Source: a virus
Length of the DNA: 24,369 nt
Reading direction: 5' to 3' (one strand)
IMG/VR virus record: IMGVR_UViG_3300025000_000410
Coordinates: 1 to 24,369 of that record
Positions 5,914 to 22,226 of the stretch are shown here, in pieces. Every line of letters begins with the position of its first letter. Positions within the stretch are counted from its first letter, which is position 1. Below the pieces are notes generated by a model. It was given only the letters and a program-made list of their open reading frames with translations, made no database searches and was not told the origin of the DNA. The position numbers were made by a program, and so were the translations under genes.

Positions 5914-6648
5914 TCAAACCCCTTCTTTAACCAGAAATTCTTTTTTATCCTTCAGTGCCTGGGCACCCACTTGCACCTTGTCAACATTTAAAGTATCTAC
6001 TATCTGGAAATATTGGTCATACAAGTGCAATCCATCTGAGAATGCAATGATCTTTCCATCTTTAATTTTAATACCAGCATCTAAGAGATATTCAAGCACA
6101 ATCTCTTTCAGCATTTGTAACCCCCCAAGATTTTCTGGTAGTCCAGCATACAGGTCCCATGACCTGAAATATACTGTCATGTTCAACTGACCATTTACCA
6201 CCTTGAAAGATATAGACCTTAGACAAGGCGGGTCATCCAGGAAAGTTGTTGAGGCATCCCCAATGCAAATAGTCGCCTGATTCGTATCACCATTAGATTC
6301 TATAAGCAACTCCACAATTCTATTCAACTGTTTGGATATAAACTCCCCATAAGTATAAACTTCATTTTCCCGTTTCTCTGAACCAAAAATATACCTATGA
6401 AAATATTCTTCTATCTTTTCATCACTTGTTGGTGCTGGAATACCTGGTGGCAGAATAGGGGCAAGTGGTCTAATCCACGGTTTATCTATTACAATCTTTA
6501 CCCCTTCCAATTGTTTACGAATCTGGCCTACGTATGATCCTCCTTTAACCATGAAATCGTACCCTTTTTTGACACACAGCCACATTGATTCCCGCCAAGC
6601 ATCTTCAATAGTTGTTGCTCTTACACAACAGAATTCCTCATTTATCAT
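5914..6648 (-). CDS. Thymidylate synthase-fold enzyme (archaeal-like ThyA type)
   Basis: 244 residues. The C-terminal two thirds carry the thymidylate synthase core: DDPPCLRSISFKV with nucleophile Cys142, YFRSWDLYAGLPENLGGLQ with phosphate-binding Arg162 and Asn173 (equivalent to E. coli Asn177, which favours dUMP over dCMP), and SDGLHLYDQYF with the His/Tyr pair. The RSWDL wording and short length resemble methanogen-type enzymes more than E. coli ThyA. Expected activity is methylation of dUMP to dTMP with methylene-tetrahydrofolate. dUMP hydroxymethylase, used by hydroxymethyluracil phages, has the same fold and cannot be excluded. GGAGA precedes the start, which overlaps the upstream stop (ATGA). 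Confidence 0.85.
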   Translation of the reverse strand: MINEEFCCVRATTIEDAWRESMWLCVKKGYDFMVKGGSYVGQIRKQLEGVKIVIDKPWIRPLAPILPPGIPAPTSDEKIEEYFHRYIFGSEKRENEVYTYGEFISKQLNRIVELLIESNGDTNQATICIGDASTTFLDDPPCLRSISFKVVNGQLNMTVYFRSWDLYAGLPENLGGLQMLKEIVLEYLLDAGIKIKDGKIIAFSDGLHLYDQYFQIVDTLNVDKVQVGAQALKDKKEFLVKEGV

Positions 6649-6827
6649 TTTGGTTCTCCATCTTTTAGAATAATAGCCATCATCTTATCACATTTCGCTA
6701 CGGCAATAATTAGACTGCTGCGTAATTCTATCCCCTTTTCCATAGTAAGTGGTGTTTCAAATTTCTTCCAGTCAATAGAATCAATTAAGTCTTGAATTCT
6801 GTTTTTAACCACATGGATATATGCCAT
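6645..6827 (-). CDS. Hypothetical 60-residue helical protein
   Basis: A strong AAGGAGA site precedes ATG 6827. The product is helical and mildly hydrophobic in its second half (LRSSLIIAVAKCDKMMAIIL), with no motif I recognise. It lies between the C-terminal half of the split Rad50 and thymidylate synthase, overlapping both neighbours by a few bases (ATGA on its downstream side), so it is certainly co-transcribed. Whether it joins the nuclease complex is unknown. Confidence 0.6.
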   Translation of the reverse strand: MAYIHVVKNRIQDLIDSIDWKKFETPLTMEKGIELRSSLIIAVAKCDKMMAIILKDGEPK

Positions 6828-7435
6828 TATTTCTCCTTTACTGAACTGATCTTGTTTTTCTTGGTTACCACAAATACTTTATCGGCAGCATCTTCCAGAT
6901 ATGTTTCATGTGTAACCACTATCATCTGTATCTGCAATTCATCCGATAGAATCTTCAGCATCTGGGATGCTCTGGGCATACGTTCTTCATCCAGGTTCCT
7001 AAACGGTTCATCTATAATCAGGCAATTTCTAGTTTCACTCAATGCCCATATAGAAACACGTAAGGCGAAACTTGCCACATCTACTGCACCGAATCCACAG
7101 GAATCAAGTGGATTCATTTCATTTACACCGTCATCCGAGAAGAACATATCACATTCCGATACGTTTCTCCTTGATATAAACCGAACAATAAACAGTGGTG
7201 CTTCCTCTTCAAAGACAATATCCAAAGCCTTTGTCGTGATCTTAGACAGGTGTTCTTCCAGATTTTTCTGGGTCAACTCTGCCGCTTTCTGCATCAACTC
7301 CCGTGCTTTAATATGACCAGCAGTAGAAGTAAACAAAACATCCAGTTCTTTGTTTAATCGGGTAATGTTGTCTTTATGGATTGCTCTCTCGGACCGTTTG
7401 TCTCTGAGTTTTTCTCTTATGGTTGCTATTTCCAT
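6827..7435 (-). CDS. sbcC: Split Rad50/SbcC: C-terminal ATPase half
   Basis: 202 residues from ATG 7435, which has GAGGGG upstream; the frame is open earlier but lacks a site there. Residues 1-60 are coiled coil. The C-terminal ATPase lobe shows a degenerate signature, DSCGFGAVDVASFALR, where Rad50/SbcC normally has LSGGE; then Walker B with D-loop, CLIIDEPFRNLDEE; then VVTHE with the switch His. No Walker A is present. It needs the partner encoded at 8559-9626, two genes upstream. Together with the Mre11-like nuclease they would process DNA ends for recombination, like T4 gp46/gp47. The GFGAVDVAS signature variant resembles other phage split Rad50 proteins I recall. Confidence 0.85.
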   Translation of the reverse strand: MEIATIREKLRDKRSERAIHKDNITRLNKELDVLFTSTAGHIKARELMQKAAELTQKNLEEHLSKITTKALDIVFEEEAPLFIVRFISRRNVSECDMFFSDDGVNEMNPLDSCGFGAVDVASFALRVSIWALSETRNCLIIDEPFRNLDEERMPRASQMLKILSDELQIQMIVVTHETYLEDAADKVFVVTKKNKISSVKEK

Positions 7436-7436
7436 A

Positions 7437-7694
7437 TTACCCCTCAAATACACTTGGAAACTTTTTCTTGAAGTCGGCAATCATCTCAGTCAGTTTATCC
7501 GTATCGGATTGTATCTCTTTAGCTAATCTCACCAATTCCTTATCTACGTCATCCAGGATATTTTTGGATCGTTTAAAACCAGCTGCCACTAATTGATCCT
7601 CTTTAGCCGATATCTTACCACGAATATTTGCAAGTGTCTCTTTGGACTTTTCCAGTTTATTCTTCAGGTCTTCAATTCGTTCCAAGTCGTTCAT
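7437..7694 (-). CDS. Small coiled-coil protein between the nuclease and the Rad50 C-half
   Basis: 85 residues, almost entirely helical and charged with a heptad-like pattern (NDLERIEDLKNKLEKSKETL ... DKELVRLAKEIQSDTDKL), ending KKFPSVFEG. GGAGA precedes ATG 7694. The gene overlaps the 3' end of the Mre11-like gene by 23 bases and ends 2 bases before the Rad50 C-half. Its place and coiled-coil nature suggest it may stand in for part of the coiled-coil arm missing from the split Rad50, or hold the halves together. That is inference; it has no zinc hook of its own. Confidence 0.65.
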   Translation of the reverse strand: MNDLERIEDLKNKLEKSKETLANIRGKISAKEDQLVAAGFKRSKNILDDVDKELVRLAKEIQSDTDKLTEMIADFKKKFPSVFEG

Positions 7695-8562
7695 GTACTT
7701 TCTCCATTATTTCTGATACAATATTTCTGGTTGTCTTGTCTGCCTTTGCCTCATCCAAAACTATCTGGAGAACTTCACTGTATTTCTTGCCTTTTGTTTG
7801 GAACTTAATATTCTGTGCCAACTCCTTAACATCCTGTTTATAGGATGCCATATCGTCCTTATCCACCTTATCCAGATCAAATACATCCCCCTCTATAGGG
7901 ATATAATAAACTTTGTATTCCAATGTATCTGTATCAATAAGTGTTACACTGGGTTTAAAGTCCATCTTATCTTTAGCACTTCTCATTATAGGCCCAGGAT
8001 TAACCAGTAACCTGTCTTTGTACTTAGTAATATGGTGATCGTGATAGTCCCCAGAAACAATTAATTGGTATTTTGGGTACTTATCCATAAACTGTTTTGC
8101 TGATAAAGCATCCGGTAAAAAGAAAGGTGGATCTTTTGGTGTAACCGGAAAATGAATGAGCAAACAATCCGATTCTTCTAAGTTTTGTGGCTCTTGTCCA
8201 AACGATACATCTTCCCATTCGTAATCAAAATAACTGGATTCTCTTATTGCCCCAGATACCAGTAATGTATTGAACGGTGTTTTATCCAATACAGGGTTGT
8301 GGTAAAAAATATCATGCTGACCAAATATACCACCTACACCGTTCTTCACTGTTTTCAATAGGAAGATGTATCGGTTTAACCAGTATAAGGAACAGTATGG
8401 TTTATCATATATATCCCCTGCTACCATTATTGTAGCATCTAATTCATTTGCCAGATCACAAATCCATTCAACCTTCCTGAATTGAACTTCTGGGTAATCG
8501 TCTTTCCTGATACGTGGCCCTTTCCCACGTATATGCCAATCTGCGGTTGCAATTATTCTCAT
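7672..8562 (-). CDS. sbcD: Mre11/SbcD-like metallophosphoesterase nuclease
   Basis: 296 residues. The metal-binding motifs appear in order: ATADWHIRG (motif I), MVAGDIYD (II), GIFGQHDIFYHN (III, with GQHD in place of the usual GNHD), LLIHFPV (IV) and VSGDYHDHH (V), then VNPGPIMR. It should act as the dsDNA exonuclease / ssDNA endonuclease subunit, like T4 gp47. I start it at ATG 8562, which overlaps the previous stop (ATGA) and has AAAGG 9 bases upstream; the ATG at 8568 would leave only 3 bases of spacing. The Asn-to-Gln change in motif III is conservative in position but uncommon. Confidence 0.9.
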   Translation of the reverse strand: MRIIATADWHIRGKGPRIRKDDYPEVQFRKVEWICDLANELDATIMVAGDIYDKPYCSLYWLNRYIFLLKTVKNGVGGIFGQHDIFYHNPVLDKTPFNTLLVSGAIRESSYFDYEWEDVSFGQEPQNLEESDCLLIHFPVTPKDPPFFLPDALSAKQFMDKYPKYQLIVSGDYHDHHITKYKDRLLVNPGPIMRSAKDKMDFKPSVTLIDTDTLEYKVYYIPIEGDVFDLDKVDKDDMASYKQDVKELAQNIKFQTKGKKYSEVLQIVLDEAKADKTTRNIVSEIMEKVHERLGTN

Positions 8563-9626
8563 ACCCATTTTCCTTTACCATTACACAATGGACATATACC
8601 GACTTCCTTTAAAAGCGAATTGAGTTCCTTTTCCTTACCATTCACTACTTTAATGGCTTTGTCTTCCATATCTTTCTGTACCTGTAAATCAGCCTTTATA
8701 GATTGCAGATGCTTTACAGATGCTTTACTGCTTTCAATTTTAGCGGAGAATGCCTCTAATTTCTTCAATTCAGTAGGGGGAGGTAGTTCGATACCCTTAG
8801 CTCTTACTTTCAAGTCCCGCAGGTCTCCCGCTAATTTTTTAATATTCTCTTCCTGATCTTCTTTACGGCACAAATTCTCATCGAATACCAGTATTGCTTC
8901 AGCAAATGGTAGGGCAGTCATATCTGGTAATTCTGCAATCTGGTTATTCAACTGAATAATTGTACCGCGGATAAAGCCAATATCGAAACATTTTTTCCCA
9001 TTTGCTTTAATCCTACTTTCTAGTTCAGACATTTTATCCAGAAATTCTATTGCTTTGTCCACCCATTCCAGTTCTTGAAACTTTTCTTTTTCCAATTTCA
9101 GTTCTGCGGTCTTCACATTATAACTGGAATTCATTCCAGTTATGGTGGAATTAATGATCTCTGTAGCTACATCCATTTCTTCCAGATGAACAATGTTGTT
9201 CAAGAACTTAGATCGCTTACCTGGTGTCCAATGTTCAGCAAGAAAGAAATTAACATCTTTCTGTAACTGGATGTTAATACCTGTCATATTGGACAGTTTT
9301 GTTATCTGTTCTGGTACCCCTGTTCGTAAAGCTGAGAACGGTTCCTCTTCCCCAGAAGCTTCATAGTAGTTATCAGTATTACTTCTTAAACGGTTTATGT
9401 ATCCACCATCATCAAAAGCAACTGATACCTCTGTACTTGGTTTCTTTTTACCATGAGGGAAGTAAGAAGTTCCCTGTGGTCTGTTTTCCAATACCCAGTT
9501 TATAGAACGGACAAGGGAACTTTTACCATAATGAGATTTGCCAATTATTACATTAACTCCTTTAGCAAAGTCCATGCAAAAATATGGGAACCCCTCCCAG
9601 TCCGCTCCTTCAATATAGTTTATCAT
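8559..9626 (-). CDS. sbcC: Split Rad50/SbcC: N-terminal ATPase half ending at the zinc hook
   Basis: 355 residues from ATG 9626, with GGAGG upstream; the frame extends to 9653 without a better start. Walker A is IIGKSHYGKSS (residues 28-37). A long coiled coil runs from about 170 to 335, and the chain stops right after a CxxC zinc-hook motif, ICPLCNGKGKW (Cys345 and Cys348). No Walker B, signature or D-loop follows; these are in the gene at 6827-7435. The gene therefore ends at the apex of what would be one continuous Rad50 arm. The hook should still dimerise around zinc, leaving the return arm to the other gene products. Confidence 0.88.
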   Translation of the reverse strand: MINYIEGADWEGFPYFCMDFAKGVNVIIGKSHYGKSSLVRSINWVLENRPQGTSYFPHGKKKPSTEVSVAFDDGGYINRLRSNTDNYYEASGEEEPFSALRTGVPEQITKLSNMTGINIQLQKDVNFFLAEHWTPGKRSKFLNNIVHLEEMDVATEIINSTITGMNSSYNVKTAELKLEKEKFQELEWVDKAIEFLDKMSELESRIKANGKKCFDIGFIRGTIIQLNNQIAELPDMTALPFAEAILVFDENLCRKEDQEENIKKLAGDLRDLKVRAKGIELPPPTELKKLEAFSAKIESSKASVKHLQSIKADLQVQKDMEDKAIKVVNGKEKELNSLLKEVGICPLCNGKGKWV

Positions 9627-10642: not shown

Positions 10643-11341
10643 CTATGAAAAGAAGATAAAATCACCGTGCTGGTTCATAAGTTTTGCTACATCCACAAAA
10701 CTTATTTTAGCCTGTCCCTGAATACCCCATCGCTTTCCCCATGAATTGTGGAGTAGAAAGTATTCCTCAAACCAATTTATACCAGATATAATTAAACAAT
10801 GACCACCTACCAGTTCACCAGTAACGTGAATAAATCCATCCTTGTCAACCTCTTGCATTCCTGTATACCAATTAACCCCTACTACTGGTGGACCTACATA
10901 GCATACACCAATAACAAGATCAGTAAAACTGAAGGCATGGTAATATCCATTTATGAAACCTAATTTAAGTAATACTTGTACTGCGGCTAAAACGGATGAA
11001 CCCTCATAAAATGGATCGGCCCCTGGGTAAGACCCACCTGGCCATGGGTCAATTTTCTGGGCTCCCCAGTAAACAGTTTCTCTAGCAAACTTGGCGGTAA
11101 CAATCTGCCGTTTAATTTGTTTTGGTTCTGCCAGTAAGGCATGACTGCAACCAAAACCAGGACATGCCCCTTCCGTACCTTGATCCAAGAAAGTCGTACA
11201 TAGATGAATCTTGTTTATCGGTTGCCGTTCCGTTGTCATAGCAGTTACCCGATACATTTTACTTCTTTCATCAGACTGAGGAATCCGATCAAGTCGCCTA
11301 TCTTTTGTAATGCTTCCGTCTTTTAAGATAAATTCTTCCAT
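10643..11341 (-). CDS. Papain-like (C1 family) cysteine protease
   Basis: 232 residues. The papain triad and oxyanion Gln are in order: FLDQGTEGACPGFGCSHALL (Gln54, Cys60), LVGGHCLIISGINW (His181) and LLHNSWGKRWGIQGQAKIS (Asn199, with the usual NSWG-x-WG context). There is no signal peptide or clear pro-region, so it should act in the cytoplasm. AGGAGA precedes the start. It sits between the DNA ligase and the MazG-like genes, in the replication operon, not near capsid genes, which argues against a head-maturation protease. Possible roles are cleavage of a host protein or processing of a phage protein. Confidence 0.82.
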   Translation of the reverse strand: MEEFILKDGSITKDRRLDRIPQSDERSKMYRVTAMTTERQPINKIHLCTTFLDQGTEGACPGFGCSHALLAEPKQIKRQIVTAKFARETVYWGAQKIDPWPGGSYPGADPFYEGSSVLAAVQVLLKLGFINGYYHAFSFTDLVIGVCYVGPPVVGVNWYTGMQEVDKDGFIHVTGELVGGHCLIISGINWFEEYFLLHNSWGKRWGIQGQAKISFVDVAKLMNQHGDFIFFS

Positions 11342-15792: not shown

Positions 15793-16812
15793 TTAATCCC
15801 TTCTTCGTAAACGTCTGGTCGGGGGAGGTTCATCCGCTTTCTTCTCTGGTTCAGGTTCTGGTTCCTGACGACGGTTACGCCGAGGTTCCGGTTCCTCTTC
15901 TTTCTTTTTTTCTGGTTCTTCGTTCAACCCACCAGATTCTTCTTCAGTTCTGCGACCTCTACGTGGAGGTGGTTCCTCTTCCTGTTTAGAAGTTTCTCTC
16001 TCCTTACGTGGTTCAGGTTCTTCTTTCTCAGTATCTTCCCCTCTACGGCGACCACGAACAGGTTGTTCTGGTTCATCATCTTCATCAGATAAACCGGAAA
16101 GAACTGCTTTTGCAATAAGCTTCAGGTCTTCCACTTCAGGTTTAACCAGGTAATCCTCAATGGTGTATGCCTGATCAAGAATTTCATCATCAATTGGTGC
16201 TGGTCGATCCTCGAAAACAATACCAGTAAGTTTCTTTCCTTTGCTCTTACCGGCAATGGTGAAGGTAATAGTCTTACCACGGTCAGGATCGGAATAAGGA
16301 ATCCTTTCACCAGTACGCTTATTCTTTGCAGTCTCTTTGAACGGACCTTCTGCAAGGTATGAACTGGCTTCCCAAATCTGAACACCATTCTGTTCCTGAT
16401 TATCAGTATATACGACAACATTGTACAGGCACCTCTGGCTACCCTTCAGTGCTTCAACCACTTTCTTCCTGGGATTATCCTTTGCCATCTCTTCTGATTT
16501 TGCATCACAGAGAGGACAATCTTCTCCATAATTCCTCAGACAGATATAATCCCCTTTCTCCGGTCCTACACGTTTATGCACCCAAATCTCAACCTTGTAT
16601 ACAGGTTTTCCTTTTGGATAGTTTGGGTGATTCTCTGAAGATATCCAGGGAATTACATCTAGTGCGTGATCCCCTTCTTTATCTTTCCAGAAATTCAGAT
16701 CAGTATCTTTGACGAAAATGGTGATATAATTTCCACCAACTGTTTCGTCTGTTCTGTTCTTCAATTCCTCGTGGTACCCTTCCTGACTACGGAATTTGGA
16801 TACTTTAGCCAT
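15793..16812 (-). CDS. gp32-like ssDNA-binding protein with a polyampholyte tail
   Basis: 339 residues. The core (about 1-225) resembles T4 gp32: KFRSQEGYHEELKNRTDE at the N-terminus, DLNFWKDKEGDHALDVIPW, and a zinc site H-x11-C-x7-C-x2-C (VHKRVGPEKGDYICLRNYG then EDCPLC). The last 100 or so residues are low complexity, alternating acidic (EEPEPEP) and Arg-rich (RRGRR, PRRNRR) blocks and ending PTRRLRRRD. gp32 normally ends in an acidic tail, so the mixed, Arg-ended tail is odd. AAGGAGG precedes the start. It coats ssDNA during replication and recombination. Confidence 0.85.
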   Translation of the reverse strand: MAKVSKFRSQEGYHEELKNRTDETVGGNYITIFVKDTDLNFWKDKEGDHALDVIPWISSENHPNYPKGKPVYKVEIWVHKRVGPEKGDYICLRNYGEDCPLCDAKSEEMAKDNPRKKVVEALKGSQRCLYNVVVYTDNQEQNGVQIWEASSYLAEGPFKETAKNKRTGERIPYSDPDRGKTITFTIAGKSKGKKLTGIVFEDRPAPIDDEILDQAYTIEDYLVKPEVEDLKLIAKAVLSGLSDEDDEPEQPVRGRRRGEDTEKEEPEPRKERETSKQEEEPPPRRGRRTEEESGGLNEEPEKKKEEEPEPRRNRRQEPEPEPEKKADEPPPTRRLRRRD

Positions 16813-17314
16813 TCTTCTGCCTCCTTTTCATTCTTGGATTCGATTCCAATTCTTTAACACTTTCTTCATCCACTACTTTTTTCTCGAACTGTTCTCCATC
16901 GGTCTTACTGACATGGGGATCGGCCCAGTAACCAGAAACATATAACTTAACAATAAGCTCCAGAGCAGTCTTCTTTTGCTCCATTGCCCCTTTGCTTCCA
17001 GTAAGAATATTTACTTGATGACTTAATTCCAGAAACTCTTCTGTTTTCTTTACAACTCTAGAATCCTGAATCACTGTATTCAAGATTGCGGCTTCTGTTG
17101 GTCTTGCTGATTCAAAACCATATTCAGAAGGATCCGCCCTTATTTCAGAATCCACCTCCGCTTTCAGTACCGCTAATTCCTCCTTGCACTTATCCCGATT
17201 GAATACTGCGGAAGCCAAGTTGTCACTGTATTCCTTATACAGTTCCGCTTGACGAATACATTCCATATCCAGATTGAGTTTATCAATCCGAAAATCATTC
17301 ATTCGATCTGCCAT
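16805..17314 (-). CDS. Coiled-coil DNA-metabolism protein, possible recombination mediator
   Basis: 169 residues with GGAGA before ATG 17314. It is largely helical. Conserved-looking strings are IRADPSEYGFESARPTEAAI, LELSHQVNILTGSKGAMEQK and ALELIVKLYVSGYWADP. Phages with a gp32-type SSB and a RecA often encode a protein of this pattern (Asp-Pro ... Tyr-Gly ... Pro-Thr-Glu-Ala-Ala-Ile) beside them. By position it could load the recombinase on SSB-coated DNA like UvsY, but that is inference. It overlaps the SSB gene by 8 bases. Confidence 0.6.
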   Translation of the reverse strand: MADRMNDFRIDKLNLDMECIRQAELYKEYSDNLASAVFNRDKCKEELAVLKAEVDSEIRADPSEYGFESARPTEAAILNTVIQDSRVVKKTEEFLELSHQVNILTGSKGAMEQKKTALELIVKLYVSGYWADPHVSKTDGEQFEKKVVDEESVKELESNPRMKRRQKNG

Positions 17315-19441: not shown

Positions 19442-19650
19442 TTAATCCTCCTTATATGAATATTAAGCAGTTTCCGAATAGCATAGGCGTGTATATCCAT
19501 TTGAATAAAAACAAATATAAACAAAAGGGAAGTAAACAATCCAGTTTCTTGGTAACAAGTGTATACCATATAAAAAATAAATAACCATCTAAGTGCAAAA
19601 GATAATGGGCTTTCTACTACTTCTTTTACTTCTTCGGTTTCTCTATCCAT
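19402..19650 (-). CDS. Small membrane protein
   Basis: 82 residues. Two hydrophobic segments, about 17-31 (FALRWLFIFYMVYTC) and 38-52 (LFTSLLFIFVFIQMD), are followed by a basic cytosolic-type tail (RKLLNIHIRRIKWEKWKENH). GGGGG precedes the start, which lies inside the end of the polymerase gene. Position in the early operon suggests a role in membrane association of replication or in host takeover, but nothing specific can be read. Confidence 0.6.
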   Translation of the reverse strand: MDRETEEVKEVVESPLSFALRWLFIFYMVYTCYQETGLFTSLLFIFVFIQMDIHAYAIRKLLNIHIRRIKWEKWKENHLSNP

Positions 19651-22226
19651 GCGTCCCCCGATTTAACATACTTGGTTAACTCAGCAAAATTACCATTTAC
19701 CTTTGACAATTCCACATCTATTTTGAACGGTACGTTGATCCATTCAAATTCTTTCAGCACTCTCTTAGAACATATCTCGTTCATCTCCGTCAACAGGTAA
19801 TCACGTTCATCAGGATACCATTGAAATACGCAGGAATCATGAATCTGGCCACAAAGATACGACCGTAATTTCTCCTTCTTAATGAATGCCTGTATACGGT
19901 TAATAGACCACAACAGGATATGAAACGCTGTTCCCTGGATAGGATAATTGGTTGTCTGTTTTCTGTCTAGTAGACCATAGAACCTGAAACCTAAATACGT
20001 TTCCACATAACCGTACTTAATATAGAAATCGTTTACTTCCTTTTTCCATGCAGTATAAACTTTGAATCGTTCATTCCACATCTTCTCTTCTGCTTTCTTA
20101 CAATGCTTGAGAAAATCGTCTACATTATGGATTCCCTTATCGTGCATGTGTTCCACTAATGGAGTACCATTCCGTAGAACAAATTTCTCTTTCTCAATAG
20201 CGGTTTCCCATAAAGTAGGACCACAACTTCCCCAATAGTCACCGTAGAACTGAGGGAATGTCCACTGATTCTTTATATAGAACCTGATCTTTCCATTTTC
20301 ATCCAGATTCTCTTTACGTACCTGCCAAATATCACAAGCATTATCCCTATGCATATCAGACCCATCAACAGTCAGGTAAGCAATAAAGTTTGGATCTTTA
20401 TGGTATGCTGCGGATGTACAAACTTCAACTCCAGAAAAGTCAATCTCACCAATACCACCATCAGGTTCAGTTACAATGCCCGTTCTTGTTATCTTCTTAG
20501 CATAGTCATCCCGTTTCGGAATGTTCTGGAAGCTAGGCAGGTTGGCACTTGACCTAAAACTCCTTGCAATCGTTAGATTAAAAAACGGATGAATTTTTCC
20601 GTTTACCTCTTCCCGTACAAACTGTGAGATGTAAGTATCCCGAACTTTCAACAATTTCCTTAGAGATAGAATATCTTCACATATGGGTAAACCAATATCT
20701 TTCAATGCCTTTTCATCTAAAGAGATATTGCCACCATCAGTAGTCCCCAATTTCTTAGCATCCAGTTTCATCACTTCAAAGAACAGTCTCTTCAGATCGG
20801 CTGGCTTTGAATGCTCAAATTTCTTTCGATATAGATTGGTGAACTTTTTTGCATATGGTTCATTGGCTATCTTCTCTTCTAACTCTTGGATCTTACCAGT
20901 TACTTCTGCTTCTGCCTTAATGTAATATTCTACATTTATCGGAATACCATTCTCCTGCATCGTGCAAAGAGTTCTGGCACTTTCAGTGAACAGGATACGA
21001 GGGTAATATTTCTTCTTAGAATCAAGTTGCCGATATTCCTCGTCCTCGGCATCGCTTAGTTTGAGGGTAAGATAGGCATCAGCCCCTACATAAAGCAATT
21101 GATCATACAGGGGCATTTCCCGCATTCTGTTGAGTTCCTTTGCCCCCTGCCTATCTGCTTCAATGTATTTGTCGGCTTTTTTATCGTAATCCCTGATACC
21201 CCATTTAAGGAAACAAAGTTCCTTTAGACCTTTGGCCCCTGTTCTGTGATCCAGAAGATGCTGATTTATATTGGTGCATTGTAACCATCCATTAACAGTA
21301 CAACCAAGGATAGTTTCTAGCCACATTGTATCAAACTGTAACTTGTGGGCAATCTTTTTGATATCTTCTCGTTCCAGATATTCCACAAGTAACTCAATAA
21401 TGTTCTCGTAAGCCTGATCGGAAAAAGTAACTTCACTGTGGTCAAGTGGAAATGCTATTGTTCCTTTTCTGGTAGATATACCAACAGAAGTGATACAATG
21501 CTTTTCATACTGTGGCTTTAAACCGGTTCCTTCAATATCAATCGATGAAATGAAATCAGAATCGGATAACAGGTCTTCCAATCCATTTATAATATCTTTG
21601 TACTCGATCAGCACCTTTACATTTTCAAATGGATTTACCTGTACCAATTCTTTCTTCTGCTTTATCTCGGCCATTACAAACTTAACCAGTCTGCCGAAAT
21701 AAGCTTTCTGATTCTCTGTCTTCATCTTGCCTGGGTTCAGCATAGGCAAAACCCAGGCACCGTATTCATGTACGGGAATAGCCCTCATTACCAATGTTTC
21801 TAGTGCCGGGGTTTTCCTTCCTATCTTACCAAGAATAGCTTTTGTTGCAGCATTTCCAACAGTCAAGATATATTTTGGTTTCAATTCCCTGATCTTGTCT
21901 ATCAGATTTGGTTTACATTTCAGTATATGGTCATCTTTCAGTTCCCCTTTACAGTAGCAGGAAACAGCGGAGGTTTTCCAGAAATTGTTCTCCAGGTTCA
22001 CTCCTACACTGGAAAAGAATTCTTTCAACGATTCCATAGTTTCTCCTGAGAAACCAAATCCTTTACTGTCTTCTATAGCAGAAGGTTTACCAGTAACGAT
22101 TAGGGTATTCAGTCTACCATTACCGTAATGTTTTGAGAATGGTGATTTGCAAATAGTGTGAAGCCCACAGGAATCACAATCCTCACTTATGGCAGGCCCA
22201 TCATTCCAGAAACTCTTTATCTTCAT
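19626..22226 (-). CDS. UDG-like / 3'-5' exonuclease / family A DNA polymerase fusion
   Basis: 866 residues in three parts. Residues 1-200 resemble a family 4-type uracil-DNA glycosylase domain: Cys motif CDSCGLHTIC (17-26), TLIVTGKPSAIEDSKGFGFS, Cys cluster SCYCKG ... KCKP (90-104), LTVGNAATKAILG and LNPGKM. Residues 225-390 are a DEDDy exonuclease (SIDIEGTGL, AHKLQFDTMWLE, YVGADAYLTLKL). The rest is the Pol A palm and fingers: motif A GEIDFSGVEV (Asp596), motif B RFYIKNQWTFPQFYG (Arg648, Lys652), motif C GQIHDSCVFQW (Asp797). HDS replaces the usual HDE. There is no 5' nuclease domain; a separate flap nuclease gene supplies that. This is the phage's replicative polymerase. AAGGTGA precedes the ATG. 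Confidence 0.92.
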   Translation of the reverse strand: MKIKSFWNDGPAISEDCDSCGLHTICKSPFSKHYGNGRLNTLIVTGKPSAIEDSKGFGFSGETMESLKEFFSSVGVNLENNFWKTSAVSCYCKGELKDDHILKCKPNLIDKIRELKPKYILTVGNAATKAILGKIGRKTPALETLVMRAIPVHEYGAWVLPMLNPGKMKTENQKAYFGRLVKFVMAEIKQKKELVQVNPFENVKVLIEYKDIINGLEDLLSDSDFISSIDIEGTGLKPQYEKHCITSVGISTRKGTIAFPLDHSEVTFSDQAYENIIELLVEYLEREDIKKIAHKLQFDTMWLETILGCTVNGWLQCTNINQHLLDHRTGAKGLKELCFLKWGIRDYDKKADKYIEADRQGAKELNRMREMPLYDQLLYVGADAYLTLKLSDAEDEEYRQLDSKKKYYPRILFTESARTLCTMQENGIPINVEYYIKAEAEVTGKIQELEEKIANEPYAKKFTNLYRKKFEHSKPADLKRLFFEVMKLDAKKLGTTDGGNISLDEKALKDIGLPICEDILSLRKLLKVRDTYISQFVREEVNGKIHPFFNLTIARSFRSSANLPSFQNIPKRDDYAKKITRTGIVTEPDGGIGEIDFSGVEVCTSAAYHKDPNFIAYLTVDGSDMHRDNACDIWQVRKENLDENGKIRFYIKNQWTFPQFYGDYWGSCGPTLWETAIEKEKFVLRNGTPLVEHMHDKGIHNVDDFLKHCKKAEEKMWNERFKVYTAWKKEVNDFYIKYGYVETYLGFRFYGLLDRKQTTNYPIQGTAFHILLWSINRIQAFIKKEKLRSYLCGQIHDSCVFQWYPDERDYLLTEMNEICSKRVLKEFEWINVPFKIDVELSKVNGNFAELTKYVKSGDAWIEKPKK

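Follow-up and report, generated by a model that had tools for sequence, protein, structure and literature searches.

Phage Rad50 encoded as two halves cut at the zinc hook, with Mre11 and a small conserved partner

Many phages and some plasmids encode Rad50 (SbcC), the ATPase motor of DNA-break processing, as two halves cut at the zinc hook. The nuclease Mre11 (SbcD) and a small helical protein that we term subunit S accompany them. We describe this arrangement starting from a 24,369-base fragment, virus record IMGVR_UViG_3300025000_000410 of the IMG/VR database (the window), and our view of the source genome is the one that this stretch provides. Four genes, all on the minus strand, lie there in the order N-half (N), Mre11-like nuclease (M), S and C-half (C), where a preliminary description made from the DNA letters had placed them. 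N and M overlap by 10 bases and M and S by 23 bases, while a gap of one base separates S from C. We interpret the products as a phage Mre11-Rad50 (SbcCD-type) DNA end-processing nuclease in which Rad50 is built of separate chains, and we place the probability of this reading at about 0.87.

Two complementary halves and their recurrence

The N-half (8559-9626, 355 amino acid residues) comprises the Walker A lobe, a helical arm and a terminal zinc hook, as judged from profiles, alignment and an AlphaFold2 (AF2) model. Its Walker A motif reads GKSHYGKS (residues 29-36, positions 9519-9542; GKSHYGKSS with the next residue), and the hook motif CPLC (residues 345-348, positions 8583-8594) lies 7 residues before the stop, the chain terminating in GICPLCNGKGKWV. 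Profile searches matched this protein to AAA_23 in Pfam (6e-6) and to phrog_16465, labelled “exonuclease” (4e-19). The AF2 model (predicted local distance difference test score, pLDDT, 83) shows a Rad50-like head, from which helices 149-184, 187-232, 241-276 and 284-342 run to the CxxC hook. Its top PDB match in Foldseek is Rad50 1f2u_A (E 5e-6), and VIA-align gives a Z score of 12.0 to Rad50 1f2u, with RecF and cohesin heads scoring similarly. In a 50-row alignment of N chains (A5), which leaves out locus L082, the residues G29, G34 and K35 of the Walker A lobe of Rad50/SbcC (GxxxxGK) and both hook cysteines, C345 and C348, are invariant. Complete N chains terminate 2-17 residues past CxxC (once 24) in nearly all complete loci.

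The C-half (6827-7435, 202 residues), identified by profiles and alignment, has the other set of motifs. A short coil precedes the signature-motif region (DSCGFGAVDVASFALR, positions 7058-7105, family consensus GGG), Walker B (CLIIDE, with LIIDE at 7007-7021), the D-loop (FRNLDE) and the H-loop (VVTHE), and Walker A is absent. G114 and G116 of the signature GxG and D142 and E143 of Walker B are invariant in 42 C chains, and no CxxC was found in the C-halves examined. The window C-half matches SMC_N (8e-6), phrog_15167 “ATPase” (3e-21) and the C-terminal end of the SbcC profile phrog_77 (positions 884-954 of 967, 1.5e-11). Family profiles of the two halves, a check proposed in the preliminary description, each ranked the corresponding part of Rad50 first in the PDB: Rad50 N-halves for N (3aux, 4e-16) and Rad50 C-halves for C (3qkr_B, 6e-17). 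That description had assigned to the upstream gene a Walker A motif and an end right after CPLC, and to the downstream gene a signature variant, Walker B and D-loop without Walker A; all of these were recovered, together with the H-loop.

Between the halves lie, again as first described, the Mre11/SbcD-like nuclease (7672-8568, 298 residues; profiles and alignment) and the 85-residue S (7437-7694). The nuclease matches Metallophos_2 (5e-7) and phrog_100 SbcD (6e-7) and keeps the metal-binding motifs DxH, GD, GN(H)D and GxH: D10, H12, G51, D52, G83, H85, D86, H139, G173 and H176 are invariant in 28 chains. Motif III reads GQHD, with Gln for the usual metal-ligand Asn, both in the window and in Microcystis phage Mvi-JY20; it is GNHD in Bacillus phage vB_BboS-125. 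In nearly all loci the Mre11 gene is found inside the split-Rad50 cluster, a linkage of the Rad50/SbcC type. In the known proteins both lobes belong to a single chain with an ascending and a descending coil. Here they are encoded by separate genes, and the descending arm is either absent or represented by S and the short C coil; we therefore class the system as a split variant and not as an ordinary member of Rad50/SbcC.

Most of the loci L006-L103 in our survey came from scans of viral contigs and genomes. The final tally includes 57 loci with the order N-M-S-C, so the expectation that other phages would share the gene order of the window was borne out, and 24 loci with the order N-S-C-M. After removal of double fetches, 77 distinct records, some of them near-identical, contain N, Mre11, S and C; the four polypeptides proposed at the outset are thus conserved. 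All four genes are also present in the 485-kb phage LR745208. Mre11 lies between the two halves in most records, and S precedes C in nearly all loci. Loci short of a gene are cut at or near a contig end, contain S within an over-long open reading frame (L072/L073), represent an unsplit relative (L062) or belong to phages with dispersed genes. Since C345 and C348 are invariant in the 50 N chains and dozens of distant records contain this set of four genes, the pattern is not due to chance. The invariant CxxC at the chain end and the recurrent split point likewise uphold the original proposal that Rad50 is truly split at the hook.

Subunit S and the arm of the N-half

Nearly every split Rad50 that we have seen is accompanied by S, a conserved protein. 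Its AlphaFold model (pLDDT 91) consists of two helices, one of 35 residues (3-37) and one of 33 (46-78). A sequence model trained on the first loci detected S in 34 of the 36 loci fetched later via the C-half alone (E 1e-12 to 1e-26), and in the remaining two (L072/L073) S lies inside the over-long reading frame. The same model found no match around T4 46/47 (including 46.1/46.2), around sbcCD of E. coli or near two unsplit Rad50s of phages, which speaks against S as a relative of T4 46.1/46.2 or as a general neighbour gene of Rad50. Searches of Pfam, PHROG, NCBIfam and PDB profiles returned coiled-coil noise alone, except for phrog_18563 (labelled “unknown”), matched by seven members, and VIA-align of the S model gave no match above Z 3.5. 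An S profile iterated at a loose cut-off drifted to another conserved replication-module protein (“MNYEEDIRIDETALDVEW” type) and was discarded.

Arm length was taken as the distance from the motif that follows the head up to the first Cys, and self-similarity was scanned at lags of 25-79 residues. A lag of 47 was the strongest in 50 of 70 N arms; 58 arms exceeded the 95% level of composition-shuffled sequences, and 47 of these had their peak at this lag. Examples of the tandem 47-residue helical repeat are found at L027:7001-8242 and L098:3447-4487. Arm lengths cluster at approximately 146, 193, 240, 296 and 343 residues; they fall into two groups, each with a spacing of 47. A Fourier scan of the lengths (periods 30-69) gave a broad peak at 47-52, the breadth being due to the different offsets of these groups. 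Self-comparison did not detect the repeat in SbcC, gp46, the unsplit L062 or L119. Across the arm-length classes S (median 75-82 residues) and the part of the C-half before Walker B (139-149) remain nearly constant in length.

These results point to an N arm that is largely self-supporting, made of helical modules of about 47 residues, with S as a cap or clamp that acts at a single site: it might hold the C-half coil to the arm base near Mre11, or close the hook end. We give this interpretation roughly even odds. It accounts for the repeat in split members, its absence from the unsplit proteins compared, and arms that step by one module while S and C hardly change; against it, the window’s own arm, which belongs to the 193-residue class, has no repeat detectable either by self-comparison or by the repeat profile. 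A further reading, in which the hook would be a free chain end without a covalent return strand, arm length would be set by the number of 47-residue modules, and S would be a dedicated, exchangeable local substitute for that strand, so that the arm ring could open between S and N with the hook intact, is offered tentatively, as the odds are against it.

The preliminary description had suggested that S may be part of the return arm. In its simple form, this idea means a second break in the chain, with S and the short N-terminal coil of the C-half constituting the descending arm and a single S copy lying along the whole N arm. The order of genes agrees with it: in Firmicutes-type loci N-S-C is colinear with hook, descending arm and C-lobe, S comes before C nearly everywhere, and the two predicted helices of S suit such a role. 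On the other hand, the arm varies by about 200 residues (146-343) while S stays nearly fixed and C changes by about 8 residues, so the longer arms could not be paired by a single S. In addition, the S profile shows no significant similarity to Rad50 arms: its match to Rad50 6zff in the PDB (E 0.14) is not significant and ranks below unrelated coils, and there is no clear hit in the unsplit L062. The colinearity therefore stands, the simple return arm is weakened, and we regard it as rather unlikely. A local replacement of the arm, a cap, a clamp, or several S copies are possible alternatives.

Dispersed and fused forms, and assembly of one ATPase

The four genes are not always adjacent. Microbacterium phage Magritte has N-half, Mre11, S and C at approximately 94, 120, 127 and 0.3 kb; all four are scattered in the genome, and its N-half (L114:1501-2553) is divergent and has lost the hook. 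In Tunturi_5 a distance of over 100 kb separates the halves: N and Mre11 occupy 124-128 kb, and the C gene lies at 19 kb. Mre11-N fusions that end near the hook and are followed by S are encoded on plasmids of Geobacillus, Paenibacillus polymyxa and Jeotgalibacillus, with the C-half as the next gene or, in Jeotgalibacillus, about 75 kb away. The order in Alkaliphilus pB6464 is M-N-S-C. Finally, the Pseudomonas megaplasmids pMPPla107 and pPL1 contain a circularly permuted Rad50, which consists of the C-lobe, N-lobe, arm and a terminal CxxC (L107:5899-7806 and L108:3641-5623). Just upstream is an S-like open reading frame, called by its position and helical sequence and given no score by the S profile; downstream is a degenerate-looking Mre11 relative that has apparently lost its nuclease motifs. 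No relative of the permuted protein was found in viral contigs or phage records. We take the permuted C-N fusion as direct evidence for the unity of the two lobes and for a break at the hook.

The genes are under constraint, and in relatives no second Rad50 was seen. Comparison of the window with its near relatives gave ratios of nonsynonymous to synonymous substitution rates of 0.12-0.14 (N), 0.08-0.10 (Mre11), 0.11-0.13 (S) and 0.02-0.04 (C). A full-length Rad50 elsewhere in the genome, which the preliminary description had named as an observation that would speak against a split, did not turn up in any of 25 longer records of relatives, among them an 86.6-kb record closely related to the window and the complete genome of vB_BboS-125. 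In these records AAA_23 scored above its cut-off once per record, at a frame of N-half size, and phrog_77 SbcC matched its N and C parts at separate places. In a concatenated tree, the split forms make up one clade relative to SbcC, gp46 and two unsplit phage Rad50s, with an ultrafast bootstrap (UFBoot) value of 83. Judged by these sequences, the split therefore looks ancient and single.

Because the split point is conserved, selection is purifying, no full-length copy occurs in the 25 records, and both C-N and Mre11-N fusions exist, it is very probable that N and C combine in trans into a single ATPase head. The N-half, with Walker A, arm and hook, would co-fold with the C-half, which supplies the signature, Walker B, D-loop and H-loop, into one ATP-binding cassette (ABC) ATPase head. 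Rad50 heads of Pyrococcus were reportedly crystallised from two separately made segments (A and B chains of 1f2t, 1ii8 and 3qkr), so that a two-chain head can form. Two such heads would sandwich ATP, bind DNA, and carry and gate an Mre11 dimer, and two N-half arms would be joined via zinc at their terminal CxxC motifs. S is probably a dedicated fourth subunit that stabilises the arm or head, most likely packed against the arms, either beside the coil of the C-half or in the role of a short non-covalent stand-in for part of the descending arm. Assembly of the pieces, as proposed initially, gains support from the natural C-N and Mre11-N fusions.

Several observations weigh against this picture. 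With four outgroups, the support of 83 for the clade is moderate. The C-half has a divergent signature, with GGG in place of SGG. The exact CxxC motif is lost in the N-half of L082, which reads CPFYNVICPLKT, Magritte lacks CxxC, and Tunturi_5 has no recognisable S; consequently, neither the hook nor S is absolutely universal.

Dispersal of the genes in a few phages and their separate PHROG names might also indicate two independent proteins, the C-half being an unrelated ABC-type regulator. We consider this very improbable: the motif sets are complementary and do not overlap, the C profile finds Rad50 C-halves first, a natural C-N fusion exists, and the halves constantly co-occur. A decayed or artefactual split (a pseudogene, a sequencing frameshift, or an intein or intron remnant) is less credible still and we reject it, for although a frameshift would be expected to yield a split ATPase, the split point is identical across dozens of divergent records, Mre11 stands between the halves in most of them, the halves can be as far apart as in Tunturi_5 and Jeotgalibacillus, a permuted fusion exists in Pseudomonas, and purifying selection is strong.

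Genomic context, known systems and significance

The split-Rad50 genes are embedded in a replication-recombination cluster with PolA, a clamp loader, a gp32-like single-stranded DNA-binding protein (SSB), RecA/UvsX, a flap exonuclease, a RusA-like or PDDEXK nuclease and a ligase. The natural reading of such a neighbourhood is phage recombination and end processing, like that of T4 gp46/47, and the complex would most likely trim or open DNA ends to allow the phage genome to recombine and replicate.

Other minus-strand genes of the window deserve mention. The family A DNA polymerase (19626-22226) has an N-terminal domain of the uracil-DNA-glycosylase superfamily (Pfam UDG 1.8e-10, residues 34-167) fused before its 3'-5' exonuclease. 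A conserved 169-residue protein of phrog_1069 (16805-17314; function unknown) adjoins the SSB and RecA genes, and many loci have similar “MNYEEDIRIDETALDVEW” proteins at a distance of about 4-6 kb from split Rad50. The replication cluster also includes a papain-like peptidase (10643-11341; phrog_16701, 1e-44; Peptidase_C1 weak). The match of a thymidylate-synthase-like protein (5914-6648) to its family is confined to the C-terminal half (residues 136-219).

T4 gp46/gp47 and E. coli SbcC/SbcD share with the split family the ABC head motifs, arm, zinc hook and Mre11 partner gene, and in T4 also the placement among recombination genes. T4 gp46 (560 residues) and SbcC (1048 residues) are single chains with the hook in mid-chain, whereas the split family has two chains cut at the hook, S in addition and, in many members, the 47-residue arm modules.

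Members of the family are already present in databases under other names. Bacillus phage vB_BboS-125 (NC_048735) has a split Rad50 with S and Mre11, its N-half terminating in CPLCEQTHKGGGC, in the order N-(AP2/HNH)-S-C-hypothetical-M, unlike the N-M-S-C of the window. Its halves are labelled as unrelated proteins: gp32 is annotated as “exonuclease” and, with gp34 preceding it, gp35 as “ATPase”; Mre11 is unannotated. Microcystis phage Mvi-JY20 (PP438412, 87-90 kb) has the gene order of the window, with an N-half that terminates CSQC...GGNPCQSSS; all its proteins of this set are annotated as hypothetical and are only about 20-29% identical to those of the window. PHROGs 16465 (exonuclease), 1499 (unknown), 15167 (ATPase) and 18563 (unknown) contain N-halves, C-halves and some S, and they are not labelled as one Rad50.

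An Mre11/Rad50 fusion was reported in 2011 for Bacillus phage 0305phi8-36, where one P-loop NTPase segment of SbcC “was not observed” (PMC3175470). This protein (A7KV18, 769 residues) is the second-best viral structure match of our N-half and is probably an Mre11-N fusion of the split family, from which the lack of that segment would be expected; the split family thus probably accounts for the earlier finding. A survey of jumbo phages regards SbcC/SbcD as practically universal in them, and where it discusses these proteins it does not mention a split. In the literature searched, with most subscription journals and bioRxiv preprints outside the search, we found no description of a split Rad50/SbcC. 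Split Rad50 with S is a new form within the Mre11-Rad50 kind.

Rad50 and SMC proteins are thought to work because a single chain extends along the coil as far as the hook or hinge and then returns to the head. The family described here suggests that a machine believed to require such continuity can function in pieces. It offers naturally occurring examples of a two-chain head and of a circular permutation, and it reveals S as a previously unannotated subunit. As a broad family, apparently of single origin, that dispenses with chain continuity and places the hook at a chain end, it allows tests of which arm parts pass on signals and of whether a covalent return strand is needed.

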